In this document: one piece after another, positions 27,419-37,300 of the stretch
How the letters are laid out: each line of letters starts with the position of its first letter
Position numbering within the stretch: position 1 is the stretch's first letter
From: a virus
Strand: one strand, 5' to 3'
Virus record (IMG/VR): IMGVR_UViG_3300030109_003456
Coordinates: 1-38,034 of that record
Length of the DNA stretch: 38,034 nt
Notes under the pieces: model-generated
Seen by the model: only the letters and a program-made list of their open reading frames with translations
Database searches by the model: none
Told to the model about the DNA's origin: nothing
Program-made: the position numbers and the translations under genes

Positions 27419-27787
27419 ATGCCCTACATTAACTCTCGCTTATCCGAACAGTTTTTCACCTCAACAGACAAGTACCCTGACCTCAGGTCATTTGGTGTGC
27501 TTATCCTGAAGGTTGTTGAACAAGGTTTTATGAGCTCATTTGTGAACAGGAATCTGTACTTAAATGATTACGTTGACATCAGATTTGTCGACGGTCAGCA
27601 CCCACTAAATCTTGATAAAAGACTAATCACTCATTTTGGCAATATTTACATACCAAAACCTGACGGTGACGGTACGTTTAAATCTGCATACAAAGTGACA
27701 GAGTGGTTCTTTGACGACACTCAAGAAGAGGGTCTCGATAAAATCTTATGGATACGATACGAAGGTGACAGCGTCCCTGAAAAATAG
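27419..27787 (+). CDS. First gene of the small-gene operon, unknown function
   Basis: 122 residues. The start at 27419 is chosen because AGGAGG stands just before it; a longer reading from 27329 would translate through the leader structure. The protein has a hydrophobic FGVLILKVVEQGF segment and an acidic C-terminus. Its TAG stop shares bases with the first tRNA-like element (27786-27787). No family recognised. Confidence 0.75.
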   Translation: MPYINSRLSEQFFTSTDKYPDLRSFGVLILKVVEQGFMSSFVNRNLYLNDYVDIRFVDGQHPLNLDKRLITHFGNIYIPKPDGDGTFKSAYKVTEWFFDDTQEEGLDKILWIRYEGDSVPEK

Positions 27788-27831
27788 CCTGACTGGTAGT
27801 CATGTGGGCGGTTCAATTCCGCCCTCAGGCT
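27786..27831 (+). ncRNA. tRNA-like acceptor/T-arm element 1
   Basis: AGCCTGA (27786-27792) pairs with TCAGGCT (27825-27831), seven pairs. GGGCGG (27806-27811) pairs with CCGCCC (27819-27824) around a TTCAATT T-loop, with T54, T55, C56 and A58 in place. The 13-base linker begins C-TGG. There is no D-stem or anticodon arm. The upstream gene's stop codon overlaps the first two bases. Confidence 0.85.
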
Positions 27832-27832
27832 C

Positions 27833-27850
27833 TACGACAATCAAGTCGTA
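27833..27850 (+). promoter_or_regulatory. Post-element hairpin 1
   Basis: TACGAC pairs with GTCGTA around an AATCAA loop, one base after element 1. It is followed by ACACAAAATACAGGA and the ATG at 27871. If RNA is cut after the element, this hairpin would be the new 5' end. Confidence 0.75.
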
Positions 27851-27870
27851 ACACAAAATACAGGATTAAC

Positions 27871-28578
27871 ATGAAAAAAATAAACACTAGAGAAGCGTGG
27901 TTGCGTGAGGCAACAATTGAGATAAATCGTACACTGTTTAAACGCAGTATGTTGGATACTATGCCTGTCATAAAAGGCAGTAATGGTGAGCCAATGTGCG
28001 GTGTTGATATCAAGCCTGTACCCGTCAAGGACTTGCAGTTTAATATGGCATTTAGTCCTAACCAACGTGTAAACGCAAAAGCAAACAAAGACAGTGGTAA
28101 GCTCGACGTTAAAGTTAAGCATATCGGTCTCTGTTACTACGACTATCAGGTAGGCAAAGAAAAGTTTGGCACTGAGATTTTTATCACACCAAATTTGACT
28201 GACCCTATTCAGATACTTGGTGTCCTGATTCACGAACTTATTCATGCAATGACTAAGGGAGCAGGGCATAAGGGAGCGTTTCGCTGGATTGCTGAGGCTG
28301 TAGGTCTTCAAAAACCTATGGTAGCTACCTCTGTCGCAAGTGATACAGCACTGTATGACTACTGTCAGAAGCTCGTTAAAAAGCTCGGCAAACCACCTCA
28401 CAAGAAGTGGGTTCCAGCAAGTGGTAAGAAGCAGTCCACTCGTATGAAAAAAGTATCGTGCACCTCACATGATGGTGACGAGTACATCATTTATATGAGC
28501 AGGACTCAGATGGAGAGAGGTACTCCAATGTGCCCACTCTGTCCTGAGACAATGCCACTTTTACCAGTAGATGCTTAA
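27871..28578 (+). CDS. SprT-like zinc metalloprotease
   Basis: 235 residues from the ATG at 27871 (CAGGA upstream); a longer reading from 27802 would run through the tRNA-like element and is rejected. The zinc site is HELIH at residues 121-125 with a third ligand at His 133 (HKGAF), the arrangement of SprT-like and related peptidases. Cys 197 and the CPLC at 221-224 look like a zinc ribbon at the C-terminus. SprT/Spartan proteins cut proteins crosslinked to DNA; here the target may be a host DNA-bound protein. The target is inference. Confidence 0.8.
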   Translation: MKKINTREAWLREATIEINRTLFKRSMLDTMPVIKGSNGEPMCGVDIKPVPVKDLQFNMAFSPNQRVNAKANKDSGKLDVKVKHIGLCYYDYQVGKEKFGTEIFITPNLTDPIQILGVLIHELIHAMTKGAGHKGAFRWIAEAVGLQKPMVATSVASDTALYDYCQKLVKKLGKPPHKKWVPASGKKQSTRMKKVSCTSHDGDEYIIYMSRTQMERGTPMCPLCPETMPLLPVDA

Positions 28579-28582
28579 CAGC

Positions 28583-28590
28583 GTTTAAAC
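28583..28590. promoter_or_regulatory. GTTTAAAC site directly before tRNA-like element 2
   Basis: An intergenic copy of the palindrome, one base upstream of the acceptor strand at 28592. Being non-coding, it shows that the repeat is not just codon usage. Confidence 0.6.
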
Positions 28591-28591
28591 A

Positions 28592-28634
28592 AGCCTGAAT
28601 GGTTGCAAGAGTAGTTCGATTCTACTCTCAGGCT
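28592..28634 (+). ncRNA. tRNA-like acceptor/T-arm element 2
   Basis: AGCCTGA (28592-28598) pairs with TCAGGCT (28628-28634). GAGTAG (28609-28614) pairs with CTACTC (28622-28627) around TTCGATT. The 10-base linker starts A-TGG-TTG. Same acceptor as element 1 but a different T-stem that still pairs perfectly. Confidence 0.9.
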
Positions 28635-28636
28635 CA

Positions 28637-28652
28637 ACGGCAACTTTGCCGT
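28637..28652 (+). promoter_or_regulatory. Post-element hairpin 2
   Basis: ACGGCA pairs with TGCCGT (inner loop ACTT, or AACTTT if the last pair opens), two bases after element 2. CAACACAAACACAGGAGA and an ATG at 28679 follow. Confidence 0.8.
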
Positions 28653-28678
28653 CAACACAAACACAGGAGAACCTTACA

Positions 28679-29014
28679 ATGAAAAACAACTTCAATCAGT
28701 TGGTAGTTTGGACTGGAACTATAGTTGGTGAAGACAATGCTAAAGACTTTGAGAACTTCTTTAAAGAAGAAGGTTTTAAAGTAAAGTATGTCACAGAATA
28801 CCTAACATTACCTGATGAAAATGATACCACAAGGGAAACAGGTGGAAGGAATGATGTCTTGTTTTATGTACACGATAAAGACATTCCTAAGTTTTCTGTT
28901 TGGAGGTTAAATTTTGGTATGAAGTGGTGGGAGGATTATTTGGACAACGGTTCAGATAAAATTGTTCCACAGCAGGTGTTAACTCAGTACAAATATGGCT
29001 GGAGCAGAGCATGA
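28679..29014 (+). CDS. Small-gene operon protein of unknown function
   Basis: 111 residues. The ATG at 28679 has AGGAGA before it; a reading from 28646 would begin inside the leader hairpin. The sequence is aromatic-rich with a KFSVWRLNFGMKWWEDYL segment and acidic loops. Its TGA overlaps the ATG of the 26-residue gene (ATGA). No family recognised. Confidence 0.75.
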   Translation: MKNNFNQLVVWTGTIVGEDNAKDFENFFKEEGFKVKYVTEYLTLPDENDTTRETGGRNDVLFYVHDKDIPKFSVWRLNFGMKWWEDYLDNGSDKIVPQQVLTQYKYGWSRA

Positions 29015-29091
29015 AAGATAACATTAAAAAGTTCATTGTCTTGCTCTTAATATGGCTACCAGTAGCTATAGGTGTTCACCTCTACTGGTGA
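29011..29091 (+). CDS. 26-residue single-membrane-span peptide
   Basis: The ATG overlaps the previous stop (ATGA) and the frame ends at TGA 29089-29091. It has a basic start (MKDNIKKF) and one hydrophobic helix (IVLLLIWLPVAIGVHLYW). Translational coupling and the good span favour a real micro-protein, perhaps acting on the host membrane. The coding sequence also contains an 8-bp inverted repeat (29058-29065 with 29082-29089). Confidence 0.6.
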   Translation: MKDNIKKFIVLLLIWLPVAIGVHLYW

Positions 29092-29097
29092 CCGCCA

Positions 29098-29141
29098 AAC
29101 TCAGAATGGTTCTTGGGGTGGTTCGATTCCACCCCTGAGTT
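29098..29141 (+). ncRNA. tRNA-like acceptor/T-arm element 3
   Basis: AACTCAG (29098-29104) pairs with CTGAGTT (29135-29141). GGGTGG (29116-29121) pairs with CCACCC (29129-29134) around TTCGATT. The 11-base linker is AA-TGG-TTCTTG. Both stems differ from elements 1 and 2 with pairing kept, which is direct covariation evidence. Confidence 0.9.
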
Positions 29142-29142
29142 C

Positions 29143-29160
29143 TACTGCAATGAAGCAGTA
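29143..29160 (+). promoter_or_regulatory. Post-element hairpin 3
   Basis: TACTGC pairs with GCAGTA around an AATGAA loop, one base after element 3. ACACACACAGGAGAAA and the ATG at 29183 follow. Confidence 0.8.
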
Positions 29161-29182
29161 ACACACACAGGAGAAACATAAT

Positions 29183-29695
29183 ATGTTTGAAATCAAAACA
29201 GAAGCTACTTATCGTGTAGACTTTGATGGCTTTAATTATCCAAAGGCATTGCAAAAAAATGAGAATGGTAACTATATGTATGAGAAGGATGAAGAAGGTA
29301 ATAATGACTATAGTAAACCGATTTGGCTTGAAGGATGTGAAGGGCTTGATTTTAAAGAACTGTACGACCACGAAGGAATTCTTAAGAACGAAGTAGAGGA
29401 AGCCCTGAATGACAGTATCAACATTGACTACCCACGTAACAATTCTGACCTAGGTGTCAGTTTTGACCATACTTGGGTTAAGGATACAGTGAATCTGTTA
29501 ATCTATAAAGAAGACCCTAAGTACGGCATAACCTTCAAGGCAATGCAAACACTTCTACATGAATATGGCTACTTTCCATCTAATGAGCAGATTGAAGAAT
29601 GGGTTGAAGAAATCACGATGCATATTGATGGGCTAGAGGACTTGTTTTACTGCCAATGGGAAGACGGTTGTGACGAACTAGTGATGGGCTGGTAA
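29183..29695 (+). CDS. Acidic small-gene operon protein
   Basis: 170 residues, strongly acidic with many Asp/Glu/Tyr/Trp. The start has AGGAGAAA before it. The C-terminus (EIEEWVEEIT-like helix, then CQWEDGCDELVMGW) carries two Cys. Acidic early proteins of this kind can mimic DNA, but no family match was seen. Its TAA overlaps the next ATG (TAATG). Confidence 0.75.
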   Translation: MFEIKTEATYRVDFDGFNYPKALQKNENGNYMYEKDEEGNNDYSKPIWLEGCEGLDFKELYDHEGILKNEVEEALNDSINIDYPRNNSDLGVSFDHTWVKDTVNLLIYKEDPKYGITFKAMQTLLHEYGYFPSNEQIEEWVEEITMHIDGLEDLFYCQWEDGCDELVMGW

Positions 29696-29997
29696 TGATA
29701 CAGAAAAGTAAAGTCAAAAAGTACATCAATACTAAAGGTTTGTCGTTGAGCTCTCAATCTTATGAGAGCCTCGACAGGCTGTTGGCAGAGGTGCTTGACC
29801 AAGTGTGTTTAAACACTCTAGAAGACAGTATGAAGACAGTCATGCCTCAACATTGTGTAACGAAGACTAAAACGGTAGTTGAGAAGGCTCCACGTGATGG
29901 AGTCAACCTCAGACCAGAGTTCTATAAATTAGCAAGAAACATTCAGGACTATTGTGCTGAACAGGCAATTGTTATGAGTAGGCAGGTCAAAGGATAG
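29695..29997 (+). CDS. Histone-fold-like small protein
   Basis: 100 residues. The first 58 align by pattern with the histone fold: short helix KSKVKKYINTKG (4-15), strand-loop LSLSS (16-20), long helix of about 27 residues (21-47), then KTVMPQHC where archaeal histones have RKTIKAEDI before helix 3. Such CBFD/NFYB/HMF-type proteins bind DNA as dimers in archaea and eukaryotes and are also annotated in some phages. The C-terminal 40 residues are a separate helical tail. Coupled to the upstream gene by TAATG; its TAG lies within tRNA-like element 4. Confidence 0.6.
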   Translation: MIQKSKVKKYINTKGLSLSSQSYESLDRLLAEVLDQVCLNTLEDSMKTVMPQHCVTKTKTVVEKAPRDGVNLRPEFYKLARNIQDYCAEQAIVMSRQVKG

Positions 29998-30034
29998 TTT
30001 GGAAGTTGGGGAGGTTCGATTCCTCCCCTATCCT
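29991..30034 (+). ncRNA. tRNA-like acceptor/T-arm element 4
   Basis: AGGATAG (29991-29997) pairs with CTATCCT (30028-30034). GGGAGG (30009-30014) pairs with CCTCCC (30022-30027) around TTCGATT. The 11-base linker is TT-TGG-AAGTTG. The last three bases of the 5' acceptor strand are the stop codon TAG of the histone-fold-like gene. Confidence 0.9.
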
Positions 30035-30035
30035 C

Positions 30036-30054
30036 AACGTGCAACTTTGCACGT
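30036..30054 (+). promoter_or_regulatory. Post-element hairpin 4
   Basis: ACGTGCA (30037-30043) pairs with TGCACGT (30048-30054), loop ACTT. It is followed by CAATTAACATAAAGGAAA and the ATG at 30077. Confidence 0.8.
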
Positions 30055-30076
30055 CAATTAACATAAAGGAAAACAT

Positions 30077-30391
30077 ATGTCAAATGGCATAAAAAAGTAT
30101 CAAGTTGAAGTAGCTGTTGACCTACCAATTTCATTTACAAAGACGGTTGAAGTTGAGGTTAACGGATTCGGTTTGACCAATAAAGCTATCGAAAACAAAG
30201 TTCACCGTAAGGCTAAGAAATTAGCTGAAGAACAATGGCAAGAAGGCGAAGGTTATGGAACTGAGTTCGAACTATGTCAACCTGAAGAATATGGAATGCA
30301 TGACACGATTGATAAGGGCGACGTTCATATCATGGATGTGAAAGGCAAAAAAACGCTACGAACCAGTAGTACCATATTCGGTAGATACTAA
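30077..30391 (+). CDS. Small-gene operon protein of unknown function
   Basis: 104 residues. The start has AAAGGAAA before it. The N-terminal third has beta-strand patterns (KYQVEVAVDLPISF, KTVEVEVNGFG), and the middle is a basic helix (KVHRKAKKLAEEQW). No membrane segment. It lies alone between two tRNA-like elements. No family recognised. Confidence 0.75.
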   Translation: MSNGIKKYQVEVAVDLPISFTKTVEVEVNGFGLTNKAIENKVHRKAKKLAEEQWQEGEGYGTEFELCQPEEYGMHDTIDKGDVHIMDVKGKKTLRTSSTIFGRY

Positions 30392-30405
30392 TCGCATGAT
30401 GCGAT
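30391..30405 (+). repeat. Small hairpin after the stop codon
   Basis: ATCGCA-TGA-TGCGAT forms six pairs, starting with the last base of the TAA stop and ending one base before element 5. It could protect the 3' end of the upstream message if element 5 is cut. Confidence 0.55.
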
Positions 30406-30406
30406 A

Positions 30407-30450
30407 AGGGTAGCTTGGAGCATGGGGAGGTTCAACTCCTCCCCTACCCT
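30407..30450 (+). ncRNA. tRNA-like acceptor/T-arm element 5
   Basis: AGGGTAG (30407-30413) pairs with CTACCCT (30444-30450). GGGAGG (30425-30430) pairs with CCTCCC (30438-30443) around TTCAACT. The linker is CT-TGG-AGCATG. The acceptor differs from element 4 at the fourth pair (A-T to G-C), a compensated change. Confidence 0.9.
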
Positions 30451-30452
30451 CT

Positions 30453-30468
30453 TGGACAATTAAGTCCA
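30453..30468 (+). promoter_or_regulatory. Post-element hairpin 5
   Basis: TGGAC pairs with GTCCA around AATTAA, two bases after element 5. AATAAACACAGGAG and the ATG at 30493 follow. Confidence 0.75.
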
Positions 30469-30492: not shown

Positions 30493-30681
30493 ATGGCTGA
30501 AAAAATAACAGTCGACTTGACACCTACTTGGTCAGCAGTGGCTGAGGTGTGTATCAGGGTTTACGAGAATCCCAATTCTCCAGCAGACAGCAGAGAATTT
30601 GCTAGAGGCGAGATTAAAAGAATGGGCAATATGATTGACCGTATGGTTGAACATTTGAAAGACGAAAGCGAGGTGGAGTGA
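30493..30681 (+). CDS. Small helical protein
   Basis: 62 residues from the ATG at 30493 with CAGGAG upstream; a reading from 30415 would run through element 5. The C-terminal half is an amphipathic helix (GEIKRMGNMIDRMVEHLKDE). Its TGA overlaps the next ATG. Function unknown. Confidence 0.7.
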   Translation: MAEKITVDLTPTWSAVAEVCIRVYENPNSPADSREFARGEIKRMGNMIDRMVEHLKDESEVE

Positions 30682-33681: not shown

Positions 33682-34387
33682 ACTCAAACCCCTTCCTTAC
33701 TTTTTCCTGTGCTGGTGGTACTTCATTATAACGCTCATTCTTAAACCACAGGTGACTGGTCTTTATGTACTGCTCGTCCGTTCTTTTAAAGTACAGGTCA
33801 ATCGAGTCCTGAACCGCCTCGACCCCTACCTTGCTCACTGCAACCATCCACCATTTTTTCGTTAGCCCCTTGTCCCCTCTTCTCCAAGGTCTACCTTCAC
33901 TATTGACCCATGACTCCCACGCTACTTGGAATGCTTTTTTCAAGTATTCCTTTTCCCTTTTTTCCTTGATTTCCTTATCAGATAAATCAATATTCTGTTT
34001 ATTATATTCTTTATTATATAATACTTTATTATTAGTAGACTGATTTGGTTTTTGCCTCTCCTCTCGACCACTAGACAGATTTGACCCTACCTTGACCAAA
34101 TGTGTCTTGTGGCTTATGGTGATTTTTCTTTTTTCCCATTCACCATTAATCTGCCTTGGCTTCTTGTAATTAATAAAACCACGCTGTCTTAAAAGAGATA
34201 TGTGTCTGCTTACCTGACGCTCAGATAAGTTTAGTATCTCGCCTATGTACCTGTTCGAAGCATAGCAAGGCTCATCGTCCGTTACTAGGTTTTGGATGAT
34301 TGCAAATATTAATTTTTGATGCAGGGTCAAGTCCAGCTCAAAGACTTCTTTATGTATCCATACCCCTTTAAAAACATTAGACTTCAT
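33674..34387 (-). CDS. Replication initiator / replisome-organizer-like protein
   Basis: 237 residues. The N-terminal 100 form a winged helix-turn-helix: LTLHQKLIFAIIQNLV, then YIGEILNLSERQVSRHISLL (recognition helix) and GFINYKKP wing. The C-terminal part (WVNSEGRPWRRGDKGLTKKW and later a DLYF helix) resembles the helicase-interacting portion of phage initiators such as O-type proteins. It would bind the origin and load the host helicase. Overlaps the next gene by eight bases. Confidence 0.7.
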   Translation of the reverse strand: MKSNVFKGVWIHKEVFELDLTLHQKLIFAIIQNLVTDDEPCYASNRYIGEILNLSERQVSRHISLLRQRGFINYKKPRQINGEWEKRKITISHKTHLVKVGSNLSSGREERQKPNQSTNNKVLYNKEYNKQNIDLSDKEIKEKREKEYLKKAFQVAWESWVNSEGRPWRRGDKGLTKKWWMVAVSKVGVEAVQDSIDLYFKRTDEQYIKTSHLWFKNERYNEVPPAQEKVRKGFEYV

Positions 34388-34841: not shown

Positions 34842-35022
34842 TTTTTTTGGCTTGTTTTTGTTGACGCTTCCAGCGTTTTATGGCTATGTGTTTTTTTCTT
34901 CGCATCTGTTTACGAGCTTTAGCTCCACGATTCACTAAATCATACGAGAGTCTGTTATTATAAATACCAGTACAGTCCTTATTATTAAATACAGAACTCT
35001 CGCATAATCTATAAGAGGTCAT
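34822..35022 (-). CDS. Small very basic protein
   Basis: 66 residues; the second half is Lys/Arg/Gln-rich (ARKQMRRKKHIAIKRWKRQQ). Two Cys in the first 20 residues. Overlaps the SSB-like stop by TAATG. Probably a nucleic-acid binder. Confidence 0.55.
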   Translation of the reverse strand: MTSYRLCESSVFNNKDCTGIYNNRLSYDLVNRGAKARKQMRRKKHIAIKRWKRQQKQAKKNARQEE

Positions 35023-35240: not shown

Positions 35241-36061
35241 TACTTAGCTCCTTTACTTAGGTTAAAAGTCTTTCGTGGTTCAAACCTTTTTGGAAATATC
35301 CATGCACCCTTTTTCCCATGCATACTTAAAGCAAGTCTCATAATATGTCGCCAGTCTTCAGCTAAACTCCAACTAACTTCTGATAGCTTATAAGTAGGTT
35401 TTCTTCTGTATCCACTTTTTATGTACAATGTGTATAATTTTTCAATTTTATTTTTAGGGAACATATGATTATGTAATAATCCGTAAGCAACCAACTGATA
35501 ATCGTGGCTCTCGACTTCTGTCCCTGTTTTAATATCAAGTATAGATGGAACACCGTTTAAACACCCTATCCAATCAACTGTACCAGCATAAGGAATTTCA
35601 TTGTGAAATAGCTTTAATTCAGTTTCCCAAGTGTCAACATCATTATCCTCCTCAAATTGACAAAAGCTCTCAAGGTACAATTGAACGGTTCGCTGGACAG
35701 ACATAAATCCGCCACCTTCCGATAAGTCCTGTTGATTAATGAAGCGTTGAATACACTCAGATATGGTGGAGAGGTTTACCGTTCTGAGATTCAACAAGTC
35801 TTCACACAAAATGTGTACAACCGTACCAAGATGAGCTTTATAATCCCTAATATTATCAGCATAACGTCCGTTGTTTTTTAGCCATTTATCAAAGTGTGCT
35901 CCTTTTGAAAGCACTAGACCGAGGATTGTTGTCACTGATATAGCTAAAAATGGGTTTTCTGAATCGTCAGTTGGGTCTTTATAAGCTCGACCCAATGGGG
36001 TAGTTTGACGAATAGCATTAGGGAAATAGTTATCTAAATATTTGTTTTTTTTCTTAGTCAA
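35240..36061 (-). CDS. PD-(D/E)XK exonuclease, Cas4/RecB-like
   Basis: 273 residues; the start must be TTG because a TGA lies two codons upstream in frame. Active-site pattern: His 83 (GTVVHILCE), Glu 148, Asp 163 in AGTVDW, Asp 176 and Lys 178 in DIKTG, and a QLVAYG motif near 189-194. This is the RecB/Cas4 nuclease fold used by phage recombination exonucleases. It overlaps the excisionase-like gene and feeds the SSB-like protein. Confidence 0.8.
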   Translation of the reverse strand: MTKKKNKYLDNYFPNAIRQTTPLGRAYKDPTDDSENPFLAISVTTILGLVLSKGAHFDKWLKNNGRYADNIRDYKAHLGTVVHILCEDLLNLRTVNLSTISECIQRFINQQDLSEGGGFMSVQRTVQLYLESFCQFEEDNDVDTWETELKLFHNEIPYAGTVDWIGCLNGVPSILDIKTGTEVESHDYQLVAYGLLHNHMFPKNKIEKLYTLYIKSGYRRKPTYKLSEVSWSLAEDWRHIMRLALSMHGKKGAWIFPKRFEPRKTFNLSKGAK

Positions 36062-36328: not shown

Positions 36329-37300
36329 ATGGCACTAATTAAAAGAAATCAAATATATTATTACCAAGACCCGTCAACTTTAAAAAGGACTTCTTTAAAA
36401 ACTAAGTGTAGAAAAACAGCACAGAAAATTAAAAAAGACTTAGATGAAAGATATACACGTTACAAGCTAGGTTTAATTAGTAGAGAAGAATATTTAGCAA
36501 GACCTGTTGAAAAAACAATACAAGACATATACAATATATATAGCACAGCAGAGCTTTCTTCAAAAAAAGTTATAAGGTATTACACTTCTAAACTAACACC
36601 GTTTTGCAAAAAATATGGTGCAACCGCAATTCAAGATTTTACATATAAAGATGCTTGTGATTATAAATCTGATTTATTAAAAAACAACACTAGTAAAACA
36701 GCAAACAATCATTTAAGTGAAATTAAAAGAATGTTTGAATGGGCTAAGAACGCAAAATATTTAAAAGAAAATGTATTTAACATACGAGGTTATTTACCCT
36801 CAATTAAACCTACAAAACCTAGATACGCTATACCTTTAAAACATATATTATATGCAATTAATAAATCTGAAAATATTTCTGATAGAGTGTACTGGACGAT
36901 ACTGCTTCATACTGGGTTAAGAAGAAATGATGCTGGTAACTTAACTGAAGACAATGTAGTTCGTGGTATTTTTCAGCAAAAATCAAAAGAATTTAGAAAA
37001 ATAATGATTACTGACACTTTAAAAAACTATGGAATTTTAATATATAAAGCAATGGCAACTGACAATGAGCAGAAAAAAAGTTTAAAAAGATTTCAAACAA
37101 TTATACAAAATAAATTTGGATATTATACAGATTTTCACAGTATAAGGCATACGACTATGACTCTCCTAGTTAATACGGATGGATTTGACGAAACGCAGGT
37201 TGGTAGAATTTTAGGAACGGAAAGCAGTGTTGCTAGTTATGCACACATAGATTTTGAAAGAGCTACAAAAGCAATTAGCAAATTAATTGGTAACGCTTAA
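36329..37300 (+). CDS. int: Tyrosine recombinase (phage integrase)
   Basis: 323 residues. Catalytic residues visible: Arg 198 in HTGLRRND, His 270 and Arg 273 in HSIRHT, and Tyr 304 in SYAHI. The LGH box found in most relatives is LGT (Thr 297), a missing second histidine. The N-terminal 150 residues form the core-binding and arm-binding parts. No obvious Shine-Dalgarno precedes the ATG. It marks a temperate lifestyle; I could not find the attachment core by eye. Confidence 0.9.
   Translation: MALIKRNQIYYYQDPSTLKRTSLKTKCRKTAQKIKKDLDERYTRYKLGLISREEYLARPVEKTIQDIYNIYSTAELSSKKVIRYYTSKLTPFCKKYGATAIQDFTYKDACDYKSDLLKNNTSKTANNHLSEIKRMFEWAKNAKYLKENVFNIRGYLPSIKPTKPRYAIPLKHILYAINKSENISDRVYWTILLHTGLRRNDAGNLTEDNVVRGIFQQKSKEFRKIMITDTLKNYGILIYKAMATDNEQKKSLKRFQTIIQNKFGYYTDFHSIRHTTMTLLVNTDGFDETQVGRILGTESSVASYAHIDFERATKAISKLIGNA

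Follow-up and report, generated by a model that had tools for sequence, protein, structure and literature searches.

Five gene junctions of a virus genome, the IMG/VR record IMGVR_UViG_3300030109_003456, carry minimal transfer RNA (tRNA)-like elements of 43-46 nucleotides (nt), named E1 to E5. Each element consists of an acceptor stem, a very short D-arm and a T-arm. The window analyzed here covers bases 1-38034 of this 41,956-base record and carries terminase, portal-like and integrase genes. All five elements lie on the + strand, the sense strand of the genes. The same anatomy recurs in many other phages, with co-varying stems, gene-boundary placement and conserved end bases. The evidence strongly supports that the elements form a widespread, unannotated RNA family at phage gene boundaries. 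We give an even chance to the proposal that they are minimal tRNA mimics cut by the tRNA-maturation enzymes of the host, mainly on the 3' side, which would punctuate the mRNA of phage operons.

Anatomy of the five elements

From 5' to 3', the module begins with the acceptor 5' strand, which starts with A, and a mini D-arm of 2 base pairs (bp) around TGG, which uses the last acceptor base in some cases. About four linker bases, a 6-bp T-stem with a 7-nt T-loop and the acceptor 3' strand, continuous with the T-stem, make up the middle. The module ends with a C, a second hairpin (hairpin 2) located 1-2 nt past the acceptor, a Shine-Dalgarno sequence such as ACACAGGAG and the start codon. The outermost A-U pair corresponds to tRNA positions -1 and 73.

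E1 (27786-27831) reads AGCCTGA / CTGGTAGTCATGT / GGGCGG-TTCAATT-CCGCCC / TCAGGCT, and its first two bases are overlapped by the stop codon TAG of the upstream gene. E2 (28592-28634) has the same acceptor, AGCCTGA / ATGGTTGCAA / GAGTAG-TTCGATT-CTACTC / TCAGGCT. E3 (29098-29141) is AACTCAG / AA-TGG-TT-CTTG / GGGTGG-TTCGATT-CCACCC / CTGAGTT. In E4 (29991-30034), AGGATAG / TT-TGG-AA-GTTG / GGGAGG-TTCGATT-CCTCCC / CTATCCT, acceptor bases 5-7 are the TAG stop codon of the upstream gene. E5 (30407-30450) is AGGGTAG / CT-TGG-AG-CATG / GGGAGG-TTCAACT-CCTCCC / CTACCCT. In every element the acceptor is paired 7/7, the T-stem is paired 6/6 and the loop is a 7-nt TTCRANT. The linkers containing TGG measure 13, 10, 11, 11 and 11 nt from E1 to E5.

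Hairpin 2 follows directly downstream of each element and is itself followed by a Shine-Dalgarno sequence and a start codon. It is TACGAC-AATCAA-GTCGTA after E1 (27833-27850), ACGGCA-ACTT-TGCCGT after E2 (28637-28652), TACTGC-AATGAA-GCAGTA after E3 (29143-29160), ACGTGCA-ACTT-TGCACGT after E4 (30037-30054) and TGGAC-AATTAA-GTCCA after E5 (30453-30468), all on the + strand. Intrinsic terminators were considered and rejected, as an A-rich leader and a start codon, without a T run, follow the elements or hairpin 2.

The initial annotation of this DNA had described five elements with a 7-bp acceptor, a 6-bp T-stem and a TTCRA loop. A scan of both strands of the 38 kb for a TTCRA T-arm with a 7/7 acceptor returned exactly E1-E5 and nothing else. 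The same annotation was right that no anticodon arm is present, as the linker of 10-13 nt is too short for one and ARAGORN found no tRNA. It was wrong in stating that no D-stem exists, because the TGG is closed by 2 bp (AA-TGG-TT, TT-TGG-AA, CT-TGG-AG). It also missed hairpin 2, and the end it gave, 30468, is the end of the hairpin 2 of E5.

Random sequences with the same dinucleotide composition contained no full element in 200 windows, and gave 0.71 T-arms per window versus the five observed. ARAGORN and Rfam at the gathering threshold returned no match in the window. At a loose threshold, Rfam gave weak antisense or fragment matches only. The Rfam tRNA model (RF00005) had no match even at E up to 10. 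Each element with its downstream 40 nt folds more stably than shuffled sequences (5/5, z -2.5 to -3.7). In the lowest-energy fold of E1 and of E3, part of the region is paired in another way, which calls for caution in single-sequence folding.

The family in phage genomes

A pattern scan of IMG/VR for TGG, the spacing and the T-arm, with no acceptor demanded, matched at least 119 stretches. Among the matches listed, an acceptor of at least 5 bp is found in 72 of 80 distinct sites, versus a mean of 10.8 and a maximum of 19 in 500 trials where 3' halves were exchanged among sites. The acceptor stems are very diverse (AAGGATG, AGCTATG, AACCTGA, AAGGAAA, AAAGCGT, AGACACA and others). In the alignment A3, 13 of the 15 pairs vary on both sides with pairing of 100%, and the covariation is 0.88 versus 0.19 for shuffled and at most 0.21 for slid alignments; as a full acceptor was a condition for inclusion, acceptor pairing in A3 partly reflects this choice. 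Neither the swap test nor the D-arm result is affected by it. The mini D-arm, which was not used in sequence selection, is paired in 19/19 members of A3 with UA, CG, AU and GC pairs, and in 48 of 66 distinct sites, where swapped halves would give 12.8. When one mismatch is allowed, the acceptor stems contain six G-U, no A-C and one G-A pair. Six G-U without A-C is as expected of a sense-strand RNA.

The placement, end-base and hairpin 2 figures that follow are descriptive, as the sequences are not independent. Of the 91 elements whose flanks were long enough, 87 have an upstream stop and a downstream start, compared with 37% for random positions. The median distance is 7 nt from the stop to the element and 37 nt on to the start. 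Of the 91 elements, 24 contain the end of the stop codon, several as a TAG at acceptor bases 5-7. The helix measures 13, 12 and 11 bp in 47, 33 and 15 of 95 elements. C74 is found in about 86/95 and A at position -1 in about 82/95, and C75 occurs in only 5-6. Hairpin 2 is present in 56/95 elements versus 16% of controls, beginning 1-2 nt past N73 in 32 of the 56.

Stems that differ while keeping their pairing had been claimed from the window, and the alignment and the swap test bear this out. The initial annotation had named co-variation and homologs in advance among the findings on which its proposal of an anticodon-less, tRNA-like family of RNase P/Z substrates punctuating an operon would stand or fall, and both were found. 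The family, the fold and the gene-boundary placement of that proposal hold, on the co-variation, the many homologs and the conserved A-1 and C74. The absence of a D-arm does not.

Degenerate tRNA genes were rejected as an explanation, since the stems co-vary and up to a dozen copies of the same form occur per genome. A tRNA-Phe reported by ARAGORN in two stretches, L034 and L018, resembled a full tRNA standing where an element would be, and is probably an artefact; its core in L034 (L034:4165-4208) is an ordinary element. Matches to the Rfam Plastid-ycf2 family are weak and antisense and were rejected as chance. Matches in Kuttervirus and haloarchaeal viruses, mostly the T-arm alone, were set aside. 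Eight stretches (L013, L023, L056, L058, L059, L063, L103 and L105) form a separate group, with AGGTAA(A/G)TGGCA...CCT followed by ATTGG. Their conserved downstream stretch ends in a motif like GTCTAGACGGTGGGATAG and resembles part of a larger structured RNA.

Annotated phage records were reached by a search with the element of Mycobacterium phage SWU2. In three cultured phages, Gordonia phage Aleemily and Mycobacterium phages Papyrus and Fowlmouth, the module occupies gaps of at least 50 nt within an operon of small genes of early type. The order is stop, mini-tRNA, A73-C74, hairpin 2, Shine-Dalgarno (like GAGGATGGAAA in Papyrus and Fowlmouth) and ATG. By a strict scan, Papyrus has the element in 11 of 12 gaps, Aleemily in 6 of 7 and Fowlmouth in 7 of 14. 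The same scan gave 0/33 gaps on the reverse strand and 0/660 shuffles, with matches in 4/183 coding chunks. Further Fowlmouth gaps hold diverged or enlarged forms, as judged by eye. The enlarged forms (gaps 36,855-36,980, 37,930-38,135 and 41,025-41,211; L161) have an extra arm between the mini D-arm and the T-arm, which places them between the minimal form and a full tRNA. At 35,844-35,887 (L161:7844-7887) and 34,981-35,020 (L161:6981-7020), elements overlap the annotated 5' parts of Fowlmouth genes 47 and 43. Because of this overlap, the starts of both genes are probably annotated too far upstream.

Cluster M mycobacteriophages have CR3/CR4 repeats with upstream stem-loops and a ribosome-binding motif between many genes (PMC7953290). 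The gaps of the cluster M phage Estes contain no T-loop element or acceptor helix and have two plain stem-loops. In Estes 73.6-81.4 kb (L163), these stand in tandem before ACACGGAGAAGGGAA. They are likely a functional counterpart without tRNA features, and hairpin 2 resembles the second of the two. The Fowlmouth gap 34,093-34,178 also holds two plain stem-loops like those of Estes, and therefore the first position can apparently be filled by either a tRNA-like element or a plain hairpin.

The covariance model R1 picked a T-arm upstream of gene 89 of mycobacteriophage D29. This T-arm lies in a 104-nt tRNA-like RNA (47,981-48,084, minus strand), GGGTAGC...T-arm...GCTACCC-A-C. Cluster A mycobacteriophages (D29, L164 minus strand; L165-L170) share this conserved four-armed tRNA-like RNA of 96-112 nt upstream of gene 89. 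It has 13 co-varying pairs and two extra arms, and hairpin 2 often follows.

A pattern search of bacterial genomes gave no match. The stretch L186 (DQKQ01000231.1) encodes a terminase 85% identical to that of the window and is binned in a Flavobacteriales metagenome-assembled genome (MAG). This gives a possible hint at the host, and the binning may be wrong. The part of L186 compared has almost nothing on the side matching the element region of the window. R1 found no element in this MAG or in 60 genomes of its order, own tRNAs included, with candidates scored in part; this is a weak negative.

The relative L003 is 99% identical to the window across E1-E2 and 88-95% elsewhere in the region. 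Before the gene whose protein starts with MFEIK, L003 has AGCCAGT...ACTGGCT with the hairpin AGAGC-AATTAA-GCTCT, whereas the window has AACTCAG...CTGAGTT with ACTGC-AATGAA-GCAGT. Helices and hairpin thus differ with pairing kept, and the start region is identical. The different element of L003 is there because an additional gene, accompanied by its own element and a hairpin 2, is inserted (L003:7115-7644, versus window 29141-29183). A second cassette (gene, E4, gene) is missing from L003. The insertion and the missing E4 cassette indicate that cassettes are gained and lost with breakpoints at the elements.

Proposed processing of phage mRNA and alternative explanations

The proposed mechanism involves the tRNA-maturation enzymes of the host. 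The acceptor and T-stem would be stacked as one helix of 11-13 bp, with the GG in the 3-nt mini D-loop docked on the T-loop. The element might then be read as a tRNA precursor and cut, splitting the operon transcript into shorter mRNAs. RNase Z uses the same half of a tRNA as RNase P. The main cut would fall 3' of the N73-equivalent base and be made by host RNase Z. The upstream mRNA would keep its stop codon and gain a tRNA-like 3' end. The downstream mRNA would begin 1-2 nt before hairpin 2 and then carry a Shine-Dalgarno and start of its own; such a 5' end might resist 5'-dependent decay. At some junctions, RNase P may act on the 5' side. We infer the docking, the cleavage, the identity of the enzymes and the effect on stability from the fold and its surroundings. 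Bacterial mRNAs are known to be stabilized by 5' hairpins (PMC3997798).

The cluster A RNA may provide an example of such an end. In several relatives, about 1,128-1,198 nt separate its 3' end from the right end of the genome. For L5, with a genome length that we take to be 52,297, this distance would place the equivalent 3' end at 51,099-51,169, overlapping a published interval. In that phage, an extremely abundant stable RNA extends from Pleft (51,672) to 51,140-51,190, where about 90% of Pleft transcripts end without a terminator and for an unexplained reason; smaller RNA species of 100-400 nt were also seen, and the region 51,195-51,407 resisted deletion (PMC5712189). As evidence of processing, the L5 3' end is suggestive only.

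Host RNase P acting alone might cut the 5' side, so that mini-tRNA and hairpin 2 would stay as the blocked 5' end of the downstream mRNA and the upstream mRNA would end just past its stop codon. The conserved C74 and A-1 favor recognition by RNase P, as these bases and the purine at +1 in most elements match its determinants. Model substrates consisting of acceptor stem, T-stem and T-loop are cleaved by RNase P (PMC11143913). The enzyme needs the T-loop and not the D-loop, and 11-13 bp from T-loop to cleavage site fits its ruler (PMC4919913). However, wherever the stop lies inside the element, cutting on the 5' side would deprive the upstream mRNA of it, and the start of hairpin 2 at 1-2 nt past N73 would have no explanation. 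The published L5 3' end also fits the 3' side better. RNase P alone is thus unlikely in our opinion. A 3' cut by RNase Z is the likelier event because it tolerates the 24/91 elements that contain the upstream stop. A cut after N73 is favored by the placement of hairpin 2, by the stops retained in about one quarter of the elements and by the L5 3' end. We therefore consider the 3' cut more likely than the 5' cut and allow for both. Also rather unlikely is an uncut block, in which mini-tRNA and hairpin 2 would bind tRNA-handling factors or ribosomes and protect the mRNA or insulate the translation of neighboring genes. The conserved fold does adjoin translation signals, the stops inside some elements suggest a coupling to the terminating ribosome, and the plain double stem-loops in the same gaps of Estes suggest that structure alone may suffice there. 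Such a block gives no reason why a tRNA fold with T-loop, docking GG and end bases is kept across very different phages.

Excised mini-tRNAs might also act in trans as free small RNAs, for instance by serving as decoys to tRNA-targeting defences or to modification enzymes. Up to a dozen elements per genome stand in early operons, the larger cluster A relative is part of the most abundant phage RNA, and attempts to delete the L5 region 51,195-51,407 failed (PMC5712189). This role is improbable, as there is no anticodon arm to serve as a target of anticodon nucleases, the placement tied to stops and starts suggests a role in cis, and the L5 toxicity is not assigned to the cluster A tRNA-like RNA. 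We find it highly improbable that the elements are mainly short shared sequences for the exchange of gene cassettes. The cassettes of the window and L003 (gene with element and hairpin 2; gene, E4, gene) do break at the elements. Homologous recombination would need the opposite of stems that differ widely with pairing kept, and the strict strand and distance to the start codon are also unfavorable.

Several points weigh against cleavage by tRNA-maturation enzymes mainly at the 3' side. The helix varies between 11, 12 and 13 bp, where a standard tRNA has 12, and hairpin 2 is absent from about 40% of the elements. Conservation of C74 would be expected for the RNase P contact with L15, whereas RNase Z has no obvious use for it. 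The position in L5 was estimated from the distance to the genome end and not from the L5 sequence.

Similar arrangements are known in other systems. In mitochondrial mRNAs, tRNAs or tRNA-like folds (t-elements) at gene borders lead RNase P and RNase Z to cut polycistronic RNA. The phage elements likewise are tRNA-type folds at gene borders: a TTCRA-loop T-arm is stacked on a 7-bp acceptor stem, and the resulting sense-strand helix of about 12 bp lies between genes. While t-elements are mitochondrial, few and individual, the phage elements form an armless, repeated family that has a 2-bp D-arm and a fixed second hairpin. The tRNA-like folds of mascRNA and MEN beta make the 3' end of the upstream transcript through RNase P and RNase Z, but these are single copies in mammalian nuclear long non-coding RNAs with a fuller cloverleaf. 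In T7 early mRNA, repeated RNase III sites between genes leave hairpin-protected mRNA ends; those sites are plain double-stranded hairpins read by RNase III, whereas the phage elements are tRNA folds. The tRNA-like domain of transfer-messenger RNA (tmRNA) also has an acceptor, a T-arm and a D-loop with little or no D-stem. The phage elements (43-46 nt) have no tmRNA-type mRNA-like domain or tag; ARAGORN found no tmRNA, and the Rfam tmRNA models gave fragments of 11-14 bits only. The RNase P model substrates share the minimal helix and T-loop but are laboratory constructs (PMC11143913), while the natural phage elements add the GG mini D-arm and have no encoded CCA.

The working principle, tRNA punctuation, is already known, and it appears to be new as an RNA family and in phages. 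Rfam 15 holds no match to the family. We found no earlier description in the open full-text literature, and since subscription papers fell largely outside this search, prior notice is possible. The evidence is evenly balanced for the broader proposal of a very widespread new class of armless tRNA mimics, each with a mini D-arm of 2 bp, that would let DNA phages with unrelated hosts punctuate early operons into individually protected mRNAs via host tRNA-maturation enzymes, with the cluster A leader RNA as an enlarged member whose 3' end would thereby be explained. If true, tRNA punctuation, known from mitochondria, would also be a common phage strategy. The elements would be the smallest natural tRNA mimics known to us, hidden in sequenced genomes because tRNA finders miss them. 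They would account for the regular gaps, 80-130 nt long, in the early operons of certain actinophages, and possibly for the 3' end of a mycobacteriophage RNA that has been studied intensively. They could also offer compact processing sites for synthetic operons.

Neighboring genes in the window

All genes at the five junctions are on the + strand. The gene at 27419-27787, which ends in E1, encodes a protein without assigned function. Between E1 and E2, the gene at 27871-28578 encodes a SprT-like zinc metallopeptidase, below the Pfam cut-off. Proteins without assigned function are also encoded after E2 (28679-29014), after E3 (29183-29695), by the gene with its stop inside E4 (29695-29997) and between E4 and E5 (30077-30391). 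In L003, the gene corresponding to the one at 29183-29695 stands behind a different element. The first gene after E5 (30493-30681) is followed by tightly packed genes without elements. A short open reading frame at 29011-29091, MKDNIKKFIVLLLIWLPVAIGVHLYW, encodes a possible membrane peptide and ends 6 nt before E3.

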